This document shows, piece after piece, positions 28,828 through 34,194 of a DNA stretch of 49,516 bases. Positions within the stretch are counted from its first letter, which is position 1. Each line of letters begins with the position of its first letter. Origin of the DNA: Pseudomonadota bacterium (GTDB lineage: Bacteria; Pseudomonadota; Gammaproteobacteria; CALCKW01). A program made the position numbers and the translations under genes. The DNA lies in NCBI GenBank assembly GCA_039196715.1, contig JBCCUP010000002.1:137601-187116 (forward strand), in the 5' to 3' direction. The notes under the pieces were generated by a model. The model did no database searches. It saw only the letters and a list, made by a program, of their open reading frames with translations, and was not told the origin of the DNA.

Positions 28828-29202
28828 GTGAGCGGACCACTGAAAGTCTTGCTGGTCGACGATTCAATGTCGATGCGCATGCTGGCCAAGAACATCGTCA
28901 GCGAACTGGGTCACGATGTGATCGGCGAAGCCAGCGACGGCAAAGACGCAGTGCAGCAGTACCTCGAACTGCAACCCGACGTCGTGTTGCTCGACCTGGT
29001 CATGCCCGAGTACGACGGACGGGCTGCACTCAACAAGATCATGAGCATCGACGACAACGCGCAGGTGGTCATCTGCAGTTCGCTCGGCTCCGAACAGGAC
29101 GTCGAGACCTGCCTTCGCAACGGCGCCCGCTCCTACTTGCAGAAACCGCTCGAAGCCAGCACCGTCGGTGCAACGCTGTCGACGTTGTCCGCACTGAATT
29201 GA
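28828..29202 (+). CDS. CheY-like single-domain response regulator
   Basis: This 124-residue receiver domain has no output domain. The acidic pocket is KVLLVDDSMSM (Asp11 and Asp12), the phospho-acceptor is Asp56 in VVLLDLVMPEYDG, the switch serine is in VVICSSLG and the conserved lysine in SYLQKPLEAS. The GTG at 28828 has GGAG six bases upstream and is favoured over an earlier GTG at 28813. The next gene, 12 bp downstream, ends in a CheX-type phosphatase domain, so the two probably form a phosphorylation switch and its eraser. No kinase gene is in the window. The neighbouring pilX-pilY1 genes suggest, but do not prove, a role in pilus-based motility. Confidence 0.92.
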   Translation: MSGPLKVLLVDDSMSMRMLAKNIVSELGHDVIGEASDGKDAVQQYLELQPDVVLLDLVMPEYDGRAALNKIMSIDDNAQVVICSSLGSEQDVETCLRNGARSYLQKPLEASTVGATLSTLSALN

Positions 29203-29214
29203 GCGGGGACGGAC

Positions 29215-30051
29215 ATGGGCGCTAAGTTTTTTGGGCAATTCCTGTTGGAAAAGGCCTTGATCTCCAAGTCTCAGCTCTTGCTTGCACTCGATGTACAACG
29301 CGAGTGCAACCCGACCATCGGCGCCCTGGCCGTTGATCAGGGCTACCTTACCGAGTACCAGGCGCACCAGATCAACATTGATCAGCAACGCTTTGACAAG
29401 CGTTTCGGCGACCTGGCGGTGGAGAAGGGCTTTCTGAATCGCGGTCAGGTCGACAAACTGTTCTCCCTGCAATCATCGCGGCGTCGCTACTTTGGCGAGA
29501 TCCTCGTCGAGCAGGGTGTGCTCGACAGTGACACCGTCAAACGCGAACTCGCCCTGCACGCCGAAGAAAACGCGGTCGTGGTCGATTCCTACAACGCGAC
29601 CATCGAAGCGCACGTGCACGCGGCGCTGGTGCGGCAGTCGGTCGACACCCTGACCCGCCTGTTTTTGCGGGTACTCAAGGCGAACGTGCAGGTGTCTCAG
29701 GTGGTGTCGGCGCTGCCCGAGTCGAACGAACGCACGGTCTGGCATCAGCAGTACCACATGCCAAGCCCGGTGCGAATCGGCTGGACCATGAACCGCGATG
29801 TTGCCGCAACGGTCTCCACCGCGTTCCTCGGCACCGACCTCAGTGACAACGACGCGGTCCGCAACGACTCGGTGGCCGAGTTCCTCAACATCGTATTGGG
29901 TCACATTGCCGCCGGGTACGCGACACAATCCGAGTTGTCGCACCTCGATCCGCCCGTGTTTCAGGACGCCGTGGCATTCAACGCCAACGCGGACAGCCTC
30001 TTCATCGACATGTCGTCGACTTTCGGGGATTTCACTCTGCTGGTCTCCTGA
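29215..30051 (+). CDS. MshEN-repeat / CheX-type phosphatase fusion protein
   Basis: This 278-residue protein has two parts. Residues 5-115 contain four 24-residue repeats starting near residues 5, 35, 63 and 92, each with F/I-G two residues in, a hydrophobic L/V pattern, and three of them with a closing Q. These match the tandem motif of MshEN domains, the c-di-GMP-binding N-domain of MshE/PilB-type ATPases; only the third repeat keeps the leading Arg (RFGDLAVEKGFLNRGQ). Residues 130-278 resemble CheX: an alpha/beta domain with Asp218-x3-Glu222-x2-Asn225 in RNDSVAEFLNIVLGH, the D/S-x3-E-x2-N catalytic motif of CheX/CheC/FliY phosphatases. It probably removes phosphate from the CheY-like protein encoded 12 bp upstream, perhaps under c-di-GMP control. 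The domain calls are by eye. Confidence 0.75.
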   Translation: MGAKFFGQFLLEKALISKSQLLLALDVQRECNPTIGALAVDQGYLTEYQAHQINIDQQRFDKRFGDLAVEKGFLNRGQVDKLFSLQSSRRRYFGEILVEQGVLDSDTVKRELALHAEENAVVVDSYNATIEAHVHAALVRQSVDTLTRLFLRVLKANVQVSQVVSALPESNERTVWHQQYHMPSPVRIGWTMNRDVAATVSTAFLGTDLSDNDAVRNDSVAEFLNIVLGHIAAGYATQSELSHLDPPVFQDAVAFNANADSLFIDMSSTFGDFTLLVS

Positions 30052-30086: not shown

Positions 30087-33000
30087 TCAGCGTTGAAACC
30101 AGTAGCTCTCGTACACCTTCGGGTTCTCGTCGCCGGGTTGCACGTTCGGGTCGGCCGGGTAGCATTCGAAACCGACACACACCGACAGGTTGCCCTCGGG
30201 GTCGCGGTGCCCGACCGCGTCTGGCGGTATGCCCGCGCCTTTGAGTGGAATCTCGCGATCGTCGGTGTCGAGCGTGCCGTTCAGGTTGTAGTCGTGCACC
30301 GGTTGCGCATCGTACAACGCCATGCGGTACAGACTGCCCTGGCCGATGTTGTGTTGACAGGGGTTGCTGCTCGACGGAATCGTGTAGACCGGGTAGTTGA
30401 TGATCCCCTCGGCAATCACCGGGCGCGAGATGGCTTTGCGGTCCGGCGGCAAGTCGATGTACCAGCCGTTGGCAGCCCGGAGGTCCTCGTATTCCTGCGC
30501 AAGCAAGGTCTGGTTTGTGAGGCTGCCGATGGTGTTGGCAGTCGCGTTGTAGAGGTCACCGGCGTCGAAAGGGGTGGTTTGAGGCACGCCCAGCGTGTTG
30601 GTGTCCTTGATCATGAACAGTCGGTTGGTGTTGGGTGACAAGGTGGGGTTCATGCGGTCGCCGCTGCCCACCACCAGCGCAGCCCACACCGCACCCTTAT
30701 CCTGCACCATCACCGCTTGCACCTGTTTGTAGGCGCGTCGGCGCTCGCCGTCAGCATCCCGGCCGAGGGCGGCGCCGCGCCACCCGTCCACCGAACTGCT
30801 CGATCGCCGCACAAAGTGGTCTTCGATGTCGAAGCGCCACACCTGGGCCCCGAGATCGACCGCGTAGAGCCGATCGGCAAAGCCGTCGTTGTTGGTGTCG
30901 AGTGTGCTCGGCTCGGCGACGAAAGCGAAGTCCATGTTGGTGAAGCTGTCGTCCGAGAACGCGGGGCTCCCGCTGGCGTAGCCCGACCAGGCAATCGAGC
31001 CGTCGTCGGTGCGCAGGATGGCGATACCGCGGCCCATGGTGTGGCCGGTGTAGCTGAACTCCGCGTTGGGGTCGTAGCCCATCGAGAAGGCCATGAAGTT
31101 CTGCGCCGTCGAGGTGTTTCGCATGCGGAACGGCACCGGCTTGGACAGTGCGTGACCGAGTTCGCTCCAGCGCGAGTTCAGCCCGCTGTGCTTCTTGGCG
31201 ATTTCAATGATCTGAGGCGAGGTGCGGTTGTTGGCCTCGGTCACGTCGAAGGAGTAGACCACGCGACCCCCGAGTCCGTAGGACAGGTAAAGCACGGCGC
31301 TGTCGCCAGCGGCCCTGCTGATCGTGCCGTCGCGGTTGCGGTCAATGATGTGGGCCGAGAGGTTGCCGTCGATCCCCCACCACCGGTTCTTGCCGGTGTT
31401 CTGGTTGTCGTACTGGGTGACGAAGTGCGGCAGCGACTCGCTCGGCGCGATCGCGAATATCTCATCGCCCGTGACGCCGTCGAAGCCGTGCAGGTAGCCG
31501 TCGCTGGTGGCGGTGAAGACCACGAGGTCCGGGTTGGCCTCGGTGCCACCGTACTGGATCACGATTGGCTGGTTGCGCACCATCGCACCGATCTGGCCGC
31601 GGCCATCGCTGGTGCTGCCGTCGCCGTCAGCGTCGAGCAGGTCCACACCCTTGGCGTAGTCGAGGATCCGTTCGCGTTCGGCGTTTGAGCGTTCGAACGC
31701 CCCGAGCCCGGCGTTGACCGGCGGGTTGGTGAACTCCAGCGCGTGCATCCAGGAACTGAGATTGGCTTCGAGGTCGGTGGTGCGGCTGTAGAGGTGGCGT
31801 GTGTTCGGTGCCTTGGCCGCCAGGCGCTCGCGCGCGCCGCCCTTGAGGATGTCGTTGCCGTCGTTGCTCGACGACCAGTAGCTGCGGGCGCTGGCGAGGA
31901 TGCTGCCGTCAGCGGTCAGGATCTCCGGGTTGTTCACCTCGTCGGAGTCCGTCAGGTAGGGGCGCAAGCCGTCGTAGTGGATGCGGTATTTCTTCAGGTT
32001 GCCTTTCCACTGAAAGCGCGAGGTGGGCTCGTACTGTGCGATGAACACTTCGCTTCGGTGGGAGAGCCGGCTGAACTGGTCGGAGCTCGTCACCAGCGAA
32101 CTGGCAACCGACTGGTTGCGGGTGAGGTTCGAGAGCAGTTCCATCAGGTCGCGCTCGAGCTGAATTGCGTTCTGTGCGGTGTAGTAGCGCGTCCCGGCCG
32201 CCTCGGCGGTGCGTTCGAGCAATTCGAAATCGATCTGGATGCCAACGGGGTGCACCTTGACCACCTGGCCGTCGGGCACGCCGTCGTTGTCGTCATCGAG
32301 CACGTTGGCGAGGCCCGGTGCGACGTCGACATTCGCCATGTAGCGCGCGAGGTCGTCGAGGCAGCTGTTGCTCGAGTCACGGTTGTTGCCCGAGAAACAC
32401 GAGCCCGTCACACCGGTCTCGGCGTCGAAGTTGGGCAGGGTCTGAATCAGCGCTTGGTTGCTGTCACTCCACGGCACACCGTCGGTCAGCATGATCACGT
32501 GGTTGCGTTGGCATTCGTGCGTCACGGGTGTGTGGTAGACATTGCTCGTGCTGTAGGCGCGCGGCACGCTCTGGCCGAAGGGCGGCAGGCCGAAATGCAC
32601 CGGGTCACCGCGGAAATAGCGGTAGATCTCGTAGAGGCCCTCGGCCAGCGGTGTCGCACCGCCGGCGTTTATTTCATTGATCGTGTTCTCGTAGACGTGA
32701 CGCCAACCGGCGTCGCTGATGTCCGAGACCTCGAAGTTGATCGACGCACCCTCGTTGCCGTTCATGCTGGCGATGCCCGCGTTCATCATCGGGAACCGCT
32801 GGCCGAGCTCCTTGATGATCTGGCGCATCACCTCGATGCGTGTGAGGTTTGGTCCGGACGGCGGGGCAAGCTTGTAGTTTATGTAGTTGCCACGCATCAC
32901 CGTGGCCCAGCCGACCGGGTCCCAGTCGATCTGTGCGGACTGGTTGGTGGTCCACGGGCTGGTCTTGCTCGGGCTGGCGAAGGCGTTGAAGGTGGTGCCG

Positions 33001-33569
33001 TTCTCGCCATGGCCCCAGCCGGTGGTGAAGTTCTGGTCTTCGAAGCATTCGAGCAGGTGCGGTGACGCGGTGTTCCAGGTGCCGTTGGCGAGCGGCAGCC
33101 ACACGTCCTCGGCAGTGGTGTTGCCGGGCACCGGGTTCGGCAGTCGCGCAACAAAGCGGGCGGTGTAGAAACCCCAGTTGCGGTTGAAGATGTGCGACCG
33201 GCCGGTCTCGCAATGGAGGAAGCTCAGCGCACCGGAATGCACCGACGCCGTCGAGGTCGGGATGGTCCCGTCGAGTGAGTAGTACAGCGTGTTCGGATCG
33301 AAGGGCCCAGTGTAGGTGTTGGTGTTGTCGTACTGCGCGGGTGCGGCCATGCTCGCGCCCATGCTGCCCGAAGAGTCGAGGTAGAACACCACGTTCGGTT
33401 GCACGCCAACCGAACGGTCGAAGTAGATGTCCGTGTCAAGCGCCTGGGCGCCGGTGAGTGAGAGCAGGCTAAGCGCGAGCGTGTGTCCGATTCGCCTCAG
33501 TGCGCGTACCGGGCGCGTGGATGAACGGGCAGACAGGTGGGATGGGGCGTGTCGAGAGGGTGCGTTCAT
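30087..33569 (-). CDS. pilY1: type IV pilus tip/biogenesis protein PilY1
   Basis: This 1160-residue exported protein is of the PilY1/PilC family, which caps type IV pili, tunes extension against retraction and can act as adhesin or surface sensor. A signal region (LALSLLSLTGAQALD, about residues 32-46) is followed by a von Willebrand A-like domain with NVVFYLDSSGSMG (MIDAS D-x-S-x-S, about residue 60). The C-terminal half is the PilC-type beta-propeller (LVVFTATSDGYLHGFDGVTGDE, YAVDLGAQVWRFD). Several Ca-binding loops of D-x-D/N-x-D/N-G type are visible, for instance DDDNDGVPDG, DADGDGSTSD, DRNRDG and DTNNDGFAD near residue 888, the position corresponding to the regulatory calcium site in Pseudomonas PilY1. 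It follows pilX by 52 bp. Confidence 0.93.
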   Translation of the reverse strand: MNAPSRHAPSHLSARSSTRPVRALRRIGHTLALSLLSLTGAQALDTDIYFDRSVGVQPNVVFYLDSSGSMGASMAAPAQYDNTNTYTGPFDPNTLYYSLDGTIPTSTASVHSGALSFLHCETGRSHIFNRNWGFYTARFVARLPNPVPGNTTAEDVWLPLANGTWNTASPHLLECFEDQNFTTGWGHGENGTTFNAFASPSKTSPWTTNQSAQIDWDPVGWATVMRGNYINYKLAPPSGPNLTRIEVMRQIIKELGQRFPMMNAGIASMNGNEGASINFEVSDISDAGWRHVYENTINEINAGGATPLAEGLYEIYRYFRGDPVHFGLPPFGQSVPRAYSTSNVYHTPVTHECQRNHVIMLTDGVPWSDSNQALIQTLPNFDAETGVTGSCFSGNNRDSSNSCLDDLARYMANVDVAPGLANVLDDDNDGVPDGQVVKVHPVGIQIDFELLERTAEAAGTRYYTAQNAIQLERDLMELLSNLTRNQSVASSLVTSSDQFSRLSHRSEVFIAQYEPTSRFQWKGNLKKYRIHYDGLRPYLTDSDEVNNPEILTADGSILASARSYWSSSNDGNDILKGGARERLAAKAPNTRHLYSRTTDLEANLSSWMHALEFTNPPVNAGLGAFERSNAERERILDYAKGVDLLDADGDGSTSDGRGQIGAMVRNQPIVIQYGGTEANPDLVVFTATSDGYLHGFDGVTGDEIFAIAPSESLPHFVTQYDNQNTGKNRWWGIDGNLSAHIIDRNRDGTISRAAGDSAVLYLSYGLGGRVVYSFDVTEANNRTSPQIIEIAKKHSGLNSRWSELGHALSKPVPFRMRNTSTAQNFMAFSMGYDPNAEFSYTGHTMGRGIAILRTDDGSIAWSGYASGSPAFSDDSFTNMDFAFVAEPSTLDTNNDGFADRLYAVDLGAQVWRFDIEDHFVRRSSSSVDGWRGAALGRDADGERRRAYKQVQAVMVQDKGAVWAALVVGSGDRMNPTLSPNTNRLFMIKDTNTLGVPQTTPFDAGDLYNATANTIGSLTNQTLLAQEYEDLRAANGWYIDLPPDRKAISRPVIAEGIINYPVYTIPSSSNPCQHNIGQGSLYRMALYDAQPVHDYNLNGTLDTDDREIPLKGAGIPPDAVGHRDPEGNLSVCVGFECYPADPNVQPGDENPKVYESYWFQR

Positions 33570-33621
33570 GCGGGGACTCGAGTGAGCCGGGCGGCGCCGT
33601 GGCCGCCGGGGGTGAGGGGGC

Positions 33622-34194
33622 TCAGTTGGAGGTGTAGAAGGTGCTCACGTCGCCGTCAGACACTTTCACGTAGGCGCTGCCGGTCACCGCGCGCTCGCCG
33701 CCACGGCCCGGGCCGTCGGCGCTGGTCGAGGTGATCTCGTAGAACACGCACTTGTCGGTGCCGGCCACCGAAACGTTCGAGATCGGGCAGGGCATGGGCG
33801 GGCCGAGCGGACGGACCTCGACCTCCGAGGTCCACCCGGAGGCGGCGTTCGGAAAGCTCAGGTTGCGCACATCGTTGACCGGGTCGGCACCGTTGACGAA
33901 GGGGTTGAGTTCGCTTTCGCGCATGGCTGGCGAGCGCAGCACGCGGCGTAAACCCGACTCGGCCGCCTCGAAACTCTCAAGCGCACTGGTCTCGTTTTGC
34001 GCGATGCGCATCTCGACGGTCGAGATGTTCGCGACCGAAAGGCCCGCGACGGTCAGGATCGTCAGCAACATCAACGCGATGATCAGCGTGATGCCGGACT
34101 GCCGACGGCGCGCTGCCGCGCGGGGCCGCGCGACCGCTGCGTTTGCTCTGCCGGTGTGGTGGGCGAAGTCTGTCGGGTCTGTCGTGCGCAGCAT
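33622..34194 (-). CDS. pilX: minor pilin PilX
   Basis: This 190-residue protein has a prepilin-type leader: a basic region (RPRAAARRRQSG) is followed by the hydrophobic helix ITLIIALMLLTILTVAGLSVA, and cleavage would fall after Gly. SAMRxxTxEERM-like sequence of PilX is represented by NISTVEMRIAQNETSALESFEAAESGLRR, highly characteristic of the family. PilX helps prime pilus assembly together with PilY1 and the other minor pilins. Normally fimU, pilV and pilW precede it in one operon; here nothing pilin-like lies upstream and the adjacent gene on the other strand is a broken monooxygenase. The two Cys (PMPCPISN, DKCVFYE) probably form the C-terminal disulfide. Confidence 0.88.
   Translation of the reverse strand: MLRTTDPTDFAHHTGRANAAVARPRAAARRRQSGITLIIALMLLTILTVAGLSVANISTVEMRIAQNETSALESFEAAESGLRRVLRSPAMRESELNPFVNGADPVNDVRNLSFPNAASGWTSEVEVRPLGPPMPCPISNVSVAGTDKCVFYEITSTSADGPGRGGERAVTGSAYVKVSDGDVSTFYTSN

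Follow-up and report, generated by a model that had tools for sequence, protein, structure and literature searches.

A Conserved Two-Gene Module of a CheY-Like Receiver and an MshEN-CheX Protein, a Putative Receiver Phosphatase Tuned by a Cyclic Dinucleotide

The two adjacent genes at positions 28828 to 30051 of the window (the whole stretch of DNA analyzed, 49,516 nucleotides) code for a stand-alone CheY-like receiver and for a 278-residue protein in which four MshEN repeats precede a CheX domain. Receiver and MshEN-CheX protein constitute a conserved two-gene module, present in several phyla. Both domains, their predicted folds, the pairing of the genes and the conservation of catalytic and ligand-contact positions were computed directly. 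We propose, with a probability of about 0.55, that the fusion is a dedicated receiver phosphatase tuned, via its MshEN array, by c-di-GMP or a related dinucleotide.

Organization of the Gene Pair

Both open reading frames lie on the + strand and are separated by 12 bp, as described in an earlier note on this DNA, which had also read the second protein as an MshEN-repeat/CheX fusion; profiles and predicted fold agree with it. The features are the following:

28828..29202, + strand: stand-alone CheY-like receiver, 124 aa, GTG start (Response_reg profile, active-site residues)
29203..29214, + strand: intergenic gap of 12 bp; it contains GGGGA, which resembles a ribosome-binding site, ahead of the second start (sequence)
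29215..30051, + strand: four-repeat MshEN + CheX fusion protein, 278 aa, ATG start (profiles, predicted fold)
29227..29298, + strand: MshEN repeat 1, residues 5-28; F5, G7, and Q28 conserved, Phe for the leading Arg in 79/79
29314..29385, + strand: MshEN repeat 2, residues 34-57; G36 and Q57 invariant, N54 for the stacking Leu
29401..29472, + strand: MshEN repeat 3, residues 63-86; R63, G65, and Q86
29488..29559, + strand: MshEN repeat 4, residues 92-115; Y92 and G94, H115 for the terminal Gln
29614..30048, + strand: CheX domain, residues 134-278; D218, E222, N225, G229, P246, and P247 invariant in relatives, ExxN at 222-225

The receiver protein matched the Pfam Response_reg profile with 82.5 bits (cut-off 30.2), and its active site is intact (D11/D12, D56, S84, and K106). 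By its acidic pair, phospho-Asp, Ser/Thr and Lys it is a single-domain CheY-like response regulator, and these residues were kept in 77-79 of the 79 partner receivers.

The CheX Domain

The CheX profile (PF13690) scored 26.6 bits (cut-off 27) with the window protein alone and 28.6 bits in a DNA-level search, and it matched 17/17 family members with a best E of 2.6e-17. When the 17-member profile was compared with the PDB, CheX of T. maritima and of B. burgdorferi were retrieved with E values from 5e-10 to 1e-9, the Glu and Asn of the ExxN motif being aligned with those of CheX 1xko and 3hzh. Residues 134-278 of the AF2 model superposed on T. maritima CheX 1squ with Z 17.0 over 143 residues (rmsd 2.7), and the model also matched B. 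burgdorferi CheX 3hzh, which comes from a CheX-CheY complex, with Z 16.3. By profile, by fold and by the alignment of ExxN with known CheX proteins, this is a CheX domain.

The ExxN motif is needed for CheX phosphatase activity (PMC3510030), and E222 and N225 were kept in 79/79 aligned proteins. The phosphatase motif D218-x3-E222-x2-N225 of the earlier note holds in part: the catalytic ExxN pair corresponds to E222 and N225, whereas the counterpart of D218 is Ser in T. maritima CheX and Ala in B. burgdorferi CheX. Judging from these alignments, D218 is a feature of the family and not a general catalytic residue of CheX. The fusion would probably dephosphorylate the neighboring receiver. No other credible CheX was found in the window's genome; a second candidate (C88, 16.6 bits) was an enoyl-CoA hydratase-like ORF and was taken as a chance match.

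Distribution and Conservation of the Module

With the single protein as query, a class-wide search returned five full-length relatives (26-34% identity), each directly preceded by a receiver gene, and a first contig scan returned none. An alignment-seeded scan of GTDB genomes gave 133 relatives, 80 of which were fetched. These came from Lysobacter, Luteimonas and Pseudoxanthomonas (Xanthomonadaceae), Piscirickettsia, Gallionella and Granulosicoccaceae; the others were from relatives of Geobacter/Desulfuromonas and from MAGs labelled Nitrospirae, Myxococcota and Auribacterota. Receivers were sought in all six frames of the fetched loci, and a same-strand receiver gene was located just upstream in 78/80, at a spacing of 1 to 119 bp. 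As for the two remaining loci, no receiver was seen in L072 and that of L091 was without its middle. In this Myxococcales MAG (L091:6481-7000) the receiver runs from LLVDDSRTVL straight into GKPFDVER, and the MshEN-CheX phosphatase gene downstream is intact.

The full-length protein is rare, with full-length matches in 6/369 genomes of the class (the window's own included) and a whole-protein match in 2/398 genomes of the phylum. It is also patchy in the window's genus, three other members of which were without an MshEN-CheX protein. Plasmid-borne relatives were sought and none was found. Short MshEN-repeat proteins (~125-160 aa, without CheX) akin to the N-terminal half occurred in other Pseudomonadota (e.g., G604:C89:820-1161, family f207).

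The 79 aligned proteins had a mean identity of 39% and a minimum of 21%, and 16 columns were invariant: F5, G7, Q8, N32, G36, Q57, G65, Q86, and G94 in the N-terminal part, and R152, D218, E222, N225, G229, P246, and P247 in the C-terminal part. It must be considered that F5, G7, and Q8 stood in one search pattern and Q57 and G65 in the other, which by itself accounts for part of their invariance; neither pattern included the CheX columns or N32, G36, Q86, and G94. The earlier note had named as grounds for abandoning its reading the absence of an MshEN or CheX match by profile or fold, or a lack of conservation of D218/E222/N225 and the repeat glycines; these were checked and neither was encountered.

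The MshEN Array and Its Putative Ligand Site

The 278-residue protein matched NCBIfam NF053729 (c-di-GMP_motif, MshE-related) in two stretches, with 71.1 bits against a cut-off of 38, in accordance with the four 24-residue MshEN-like repeats previously described, and the same family was matched by 17/17 members scanned. The repeats begin near residues 5, 34, 63, and 92, with a spacing of 29 as in MshE. A weak match to DUF4388 (PATAN) was under its cut-off and this assignment was not used.

The full-length AF2 model (pLDDT 83) consisted of a helical N-terminal array followed by the CheX domain. Residues 33-89 (repeats 2+3) formed the four-helix bundle of two MshEN motifs and superposed on c-di-GMP-bound MshE (5htl) with Z 11.1 and rmsd 1.4 over 57 residues; PilF GSPII-B was likewise among the structural matches, as were PilB N-domains in complex with PilZ. 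In a second, N-terminal model (46 sequences, pLDDT 90) the same region was matched with rmsd down to 0.7 Å. Across the two models, repeats 2-3 thus lay on c-di-GMP-bound MshE within 0.7-1.4 Å over 56-58 residues. Matches to the fumarase C-terminus, by profile and by fold, spanned helical repeats only.

According to the main text of Wang et al. (2016), the polar contacts of MshE with c-di-GMP are made by the third-position Gly and next-residue backbone amides and by the terminal Gln of each motif, and Leu triads stack on the guanines (PMC5013675). In the family studied here, the two Gly of pair 1-2 are kept and its two Gln are nearly always present; in pair 2-3 the two Gly (G36/G65) and the two Gln (Q57/Q86), counterparts of the MshE contact residues, never vary. 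Position 54, which belongs to both of these pairs, is Asn/His in nearly all relatives. No hydrophobic position is lost in pair 3-4, whose last Gln (position 115) is replaced by His/Phe. The full binding consensus of Leu triads and both Gln was found in none of the pairs, the departures from the published site being position 54, normally a guanine-stacking Leu, and position 115, normally a Gln.

The earlier note had correctly observed that only the third repeat keeps the leading Arg and had argued from this for weakened binding. Such an argument falls because GSPII-B of PilF binds tightly with Lys/Leu at that position (6 nM, and 2 nM for K167L), and the consensus of the leading residues has been widened from GSPII-B to (R/K/L)LG (PMC11731258). 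Single Gln-to-Glu mutants of GSPII-B bound at 460-950 nM and the double mutant did not bind. PilF GSPII-A, which carries several deviations, does not bind c-di-GMP (PMC12002112). A cyclic-dinucleotide site is likely in the MshEN array, and the repeats would probably bind a ligand of this class. As to the place of the pocket, the sequence profiles favor pairs 1-2 and 3-4 and the structural models favor 2-3.

Genomic Neighborhood and Signaling Gene Content

In the window, PilX-PilY1-like minor pilin genes (30087-34194, - strand) are convergent with the pair; pilX matched PF14341, and the PilY1 profile was borderline (27.9 bits, cut-off 28.1). The neighbors of the relatives were read locus by locus because shadow ORFs in GC-rich loci confounded the all-against-all clustering of ORFs. 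They varied by lineage, and no pil genes were found beside the pair in any relative whose surroundings were read. An EAL phosphodiesterase gene was located just downstream of the pair in one Pseudoxanthomonas locus. In Pseudoxanthomonas composti (L022:8027-13705), a CHASE-PAS hybrid kinase, which also has receiver and Hpt domains, and a REC-HD protein are encoded downstream of the pair and might provide phosphoryl groups and c-di-GMP turnover. In Piscirickettsia, CheW-like genes, identified by sequence resemblance, were ~2 kb from the pair.

Counts of signaling genes cover 34 module-bearing genomes only, among which CheA was present in 33/34, FliG in 31/34, PilT above the cut-off in 32/34, and CheZ in 24/34. 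A FliG match was absent in three module-bearing MAGs, and both Piscirickettsia module genomes had CheA and FliG and no PilT above the family cut-off. The CheZ matches of Xanthomonadaceae consisted of two pieces at the profile ends (e.g., G385:C6:101037-101501 and G377:C37:146944-147426), which suggests that the middle of these proteins was replaced or has diverged.

The window's genome contains flagellar genes (FliG, cluster) and a Pil-Chp-like cluster with a ChpA-like kinase, and a search for CheZ gave no match in it. The sole other stand-alone receiver at E<=1e-8, a cut-off at which more diverged receivers are missed, belongs to the Pil-Chp cluster, while the sole other MshEN protein is an ATPase beside pseudopilin-like genes. 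The same genome carries a CheA-CheW-STAS-like-CheR cluster (G000:C7, L112:5446-9257) with no adjoining receiver gene.

Proposed Mechanism and Alternative Readings

In the mechanism that we propose, a CheA-type kinase would transfer a phosphoryl group to D56 of the stand-alone receiver. The CheX domain would then dock on the phosphorylated receiver, with E222 and N225 positioning the water for hydrolysis of the phospho-aspartate. Neighboring repeats of the four-repeat array would form a cleft that holds a cyclic dinucleotide, c-di-GMP being the most likely one, and ligand binding would alter phosphatase activity, dimer state or location. Inferred in this mechanism are the activity of the enzyme and its binding of a ligand, together with the kinase, the regulatory sign and the output, be it flagellar, pilus or other chemosensory.

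This reading is supported because the receiver gene is paired in nearly all loci, over several phyla, with its phosphorylation-site residues kept, and because E222/N225, G36/G65, and Q57/Q86 stay invariant at identities down to 21%. It is also favored by the superposition of repeats 2-3 on c-di-GMP-bound MshE in two models and by the alignment of ExxN with CheX of known structure. At the genome level, support comes from the presence of CheA in all but one of the module genomes, from the EAL and REC-HD genes near the pair in two loci, and from the window's genome having neither a CheZ match nor another credible CheX. It is weakened because no repeat pair fully matches the published site, because profiles and models point to different pairs for the pocket, and because some slightly deviating MshEN domains, such as PilF GSPII-A, do not bind c-di-GMP (PMC12002112). 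More tentatively, the pocket may be re-formed, possibly by repeats 2-3, with Asn/His conserved in one of the guanine half-sites, which may change affinity or ligand, and the ligand may directly set the lifetime of the dedicated receiver; we would put this at somewhat below even odds. The choice of ligand may be altered, e.g., to 3',3'-cGAMP in Geobacter-type bacteria.

The departures of every repeat pair from the binding consensus would also fit repeats that no longer bind nucleotide and serve as a structural or docking arm placing CheX at a partner, which could be a T4P/T2SS ATPase, a chemosensory array or a second copy of the protein itself. MshEN-like domains without c-di-GMP binding do exist (PMC12002112), and the PilB N-domain/PilZ complexes among the structural matches recall the binding of PilZ by the Xanthomonas PilB N-domain. 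However, docking by itself would hardly account for the Gly and Gln that stay invariant at ligand-contact positions across several phyla, and the changes at position 1 are compatible with tight binding; we regard loss of binding as rather unlikely.

With respect to the output, the paired receiver could be the main flagellar CheY of its host, in which case the fusion would replace CheZ and c-di-GMP, if involved, would slow or bias swimming. The window's genome, with flagellar genes, no CheZ match, a CheA-CheW-CheR cluster lacking an adjoining receiver gene and its only other stand-alone receiver (E<=1e-8) in the Pil-Chp cluster, is consistent with this, as is the frequency of FliG among module genomes. 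Nevertheless, CheZ also occurs in 24 of these 34 genomes, where the pair would be an extra branch, three module MAGs had no FliG match, and more diverged receivers are missed at the E-value used; we consider it unlikely that the pair has this role. Control of type IV pili, which the earlier note had derived from the adjoining pilX and PilY1-like genes, agrees with PilT being above the cut-off in most module genomes. Against it, those genes are convergent with the pair, no relative examined in the survey of pil neighbors had any, and in the two Piscirickettsia genomes the module occurs with no PilT of full score; control of pili by the pair appears improbable. Given Piscirickettsia and the chemosensory and flagellar content of the window's genome, the output of the dinucleotide-tuned phosphatase is no less likely to be flagellar or otherwise chemosensory than pilus-related.

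Relation to Known Systems

The protein resembles the CheX phosphatases of T. maritima and B. burgdorferi in its fold (Z 16-17 over 138-145 residues), in its ExxN pair and in its presumed receiver substrate. It differs from CheX proteins of known structure, which stand alone with ~155 residues, by its four-repeat MshEN arm and its dedicated receiver gene. With the MshEN/GSPII domains of V. cholerae MshE and T. thermophilus PilF GSPII-B it shares 24-residue motifs 29 apart, Gly/Gln at contact positions and a four-helix bundle superposing at about 1 Å. Unlike these domains, which have two motifs and a C-terminal subdomain, it has four motifs in an unbroken row and no ATPase, with Asn/His at position 54 and His/Phe at 115. 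Dedicated dephosphorylation of CheY-type receivers is likewise the role of CheZ, CheC and FliY. CheC and FliY share the fold of the CheX domain described here (Z about 11); the CheZ fold is not related to it, and two active sites are present in CheC. To our knowledge, an MshEN arm is not known on CheZ, CheC or FliY.

Wang et al. (2016) mention the combination of MshEN and CheX in a single main-text sentence, which does not go into receiver partner, active site or binding positions (PMC5013675). A literature search combining CheX with c-di-GMP/MshEN returned only that mention and unrelated passing ones, and no functional study of an MshEN-CheX protein was found in the openly accessible literature searched. 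The domain association was mentioned in 2016; the conserved pairing, the multi-phylum spread and the invariant contact positions were not found in that literature.

c-di-GMP is usually joined to chemosensory phosphorelays through motor brakes (PilZ proteins) or through the enzymes that make c-di-GMP. If the proposed mechanism is true, both signaling systems would be joined in a single step by a phosphatase equipped with a receiver of its own and an internal c-di-GMP sensor, and the family would represent a biochemical junction of second-messenger and chemosensory signaling across several phyla. The small size of the module and its presence in culturable bacteria (Lysobacter, Pseudoxanthomonas, and Geobacter) make binding and activity directly testable.
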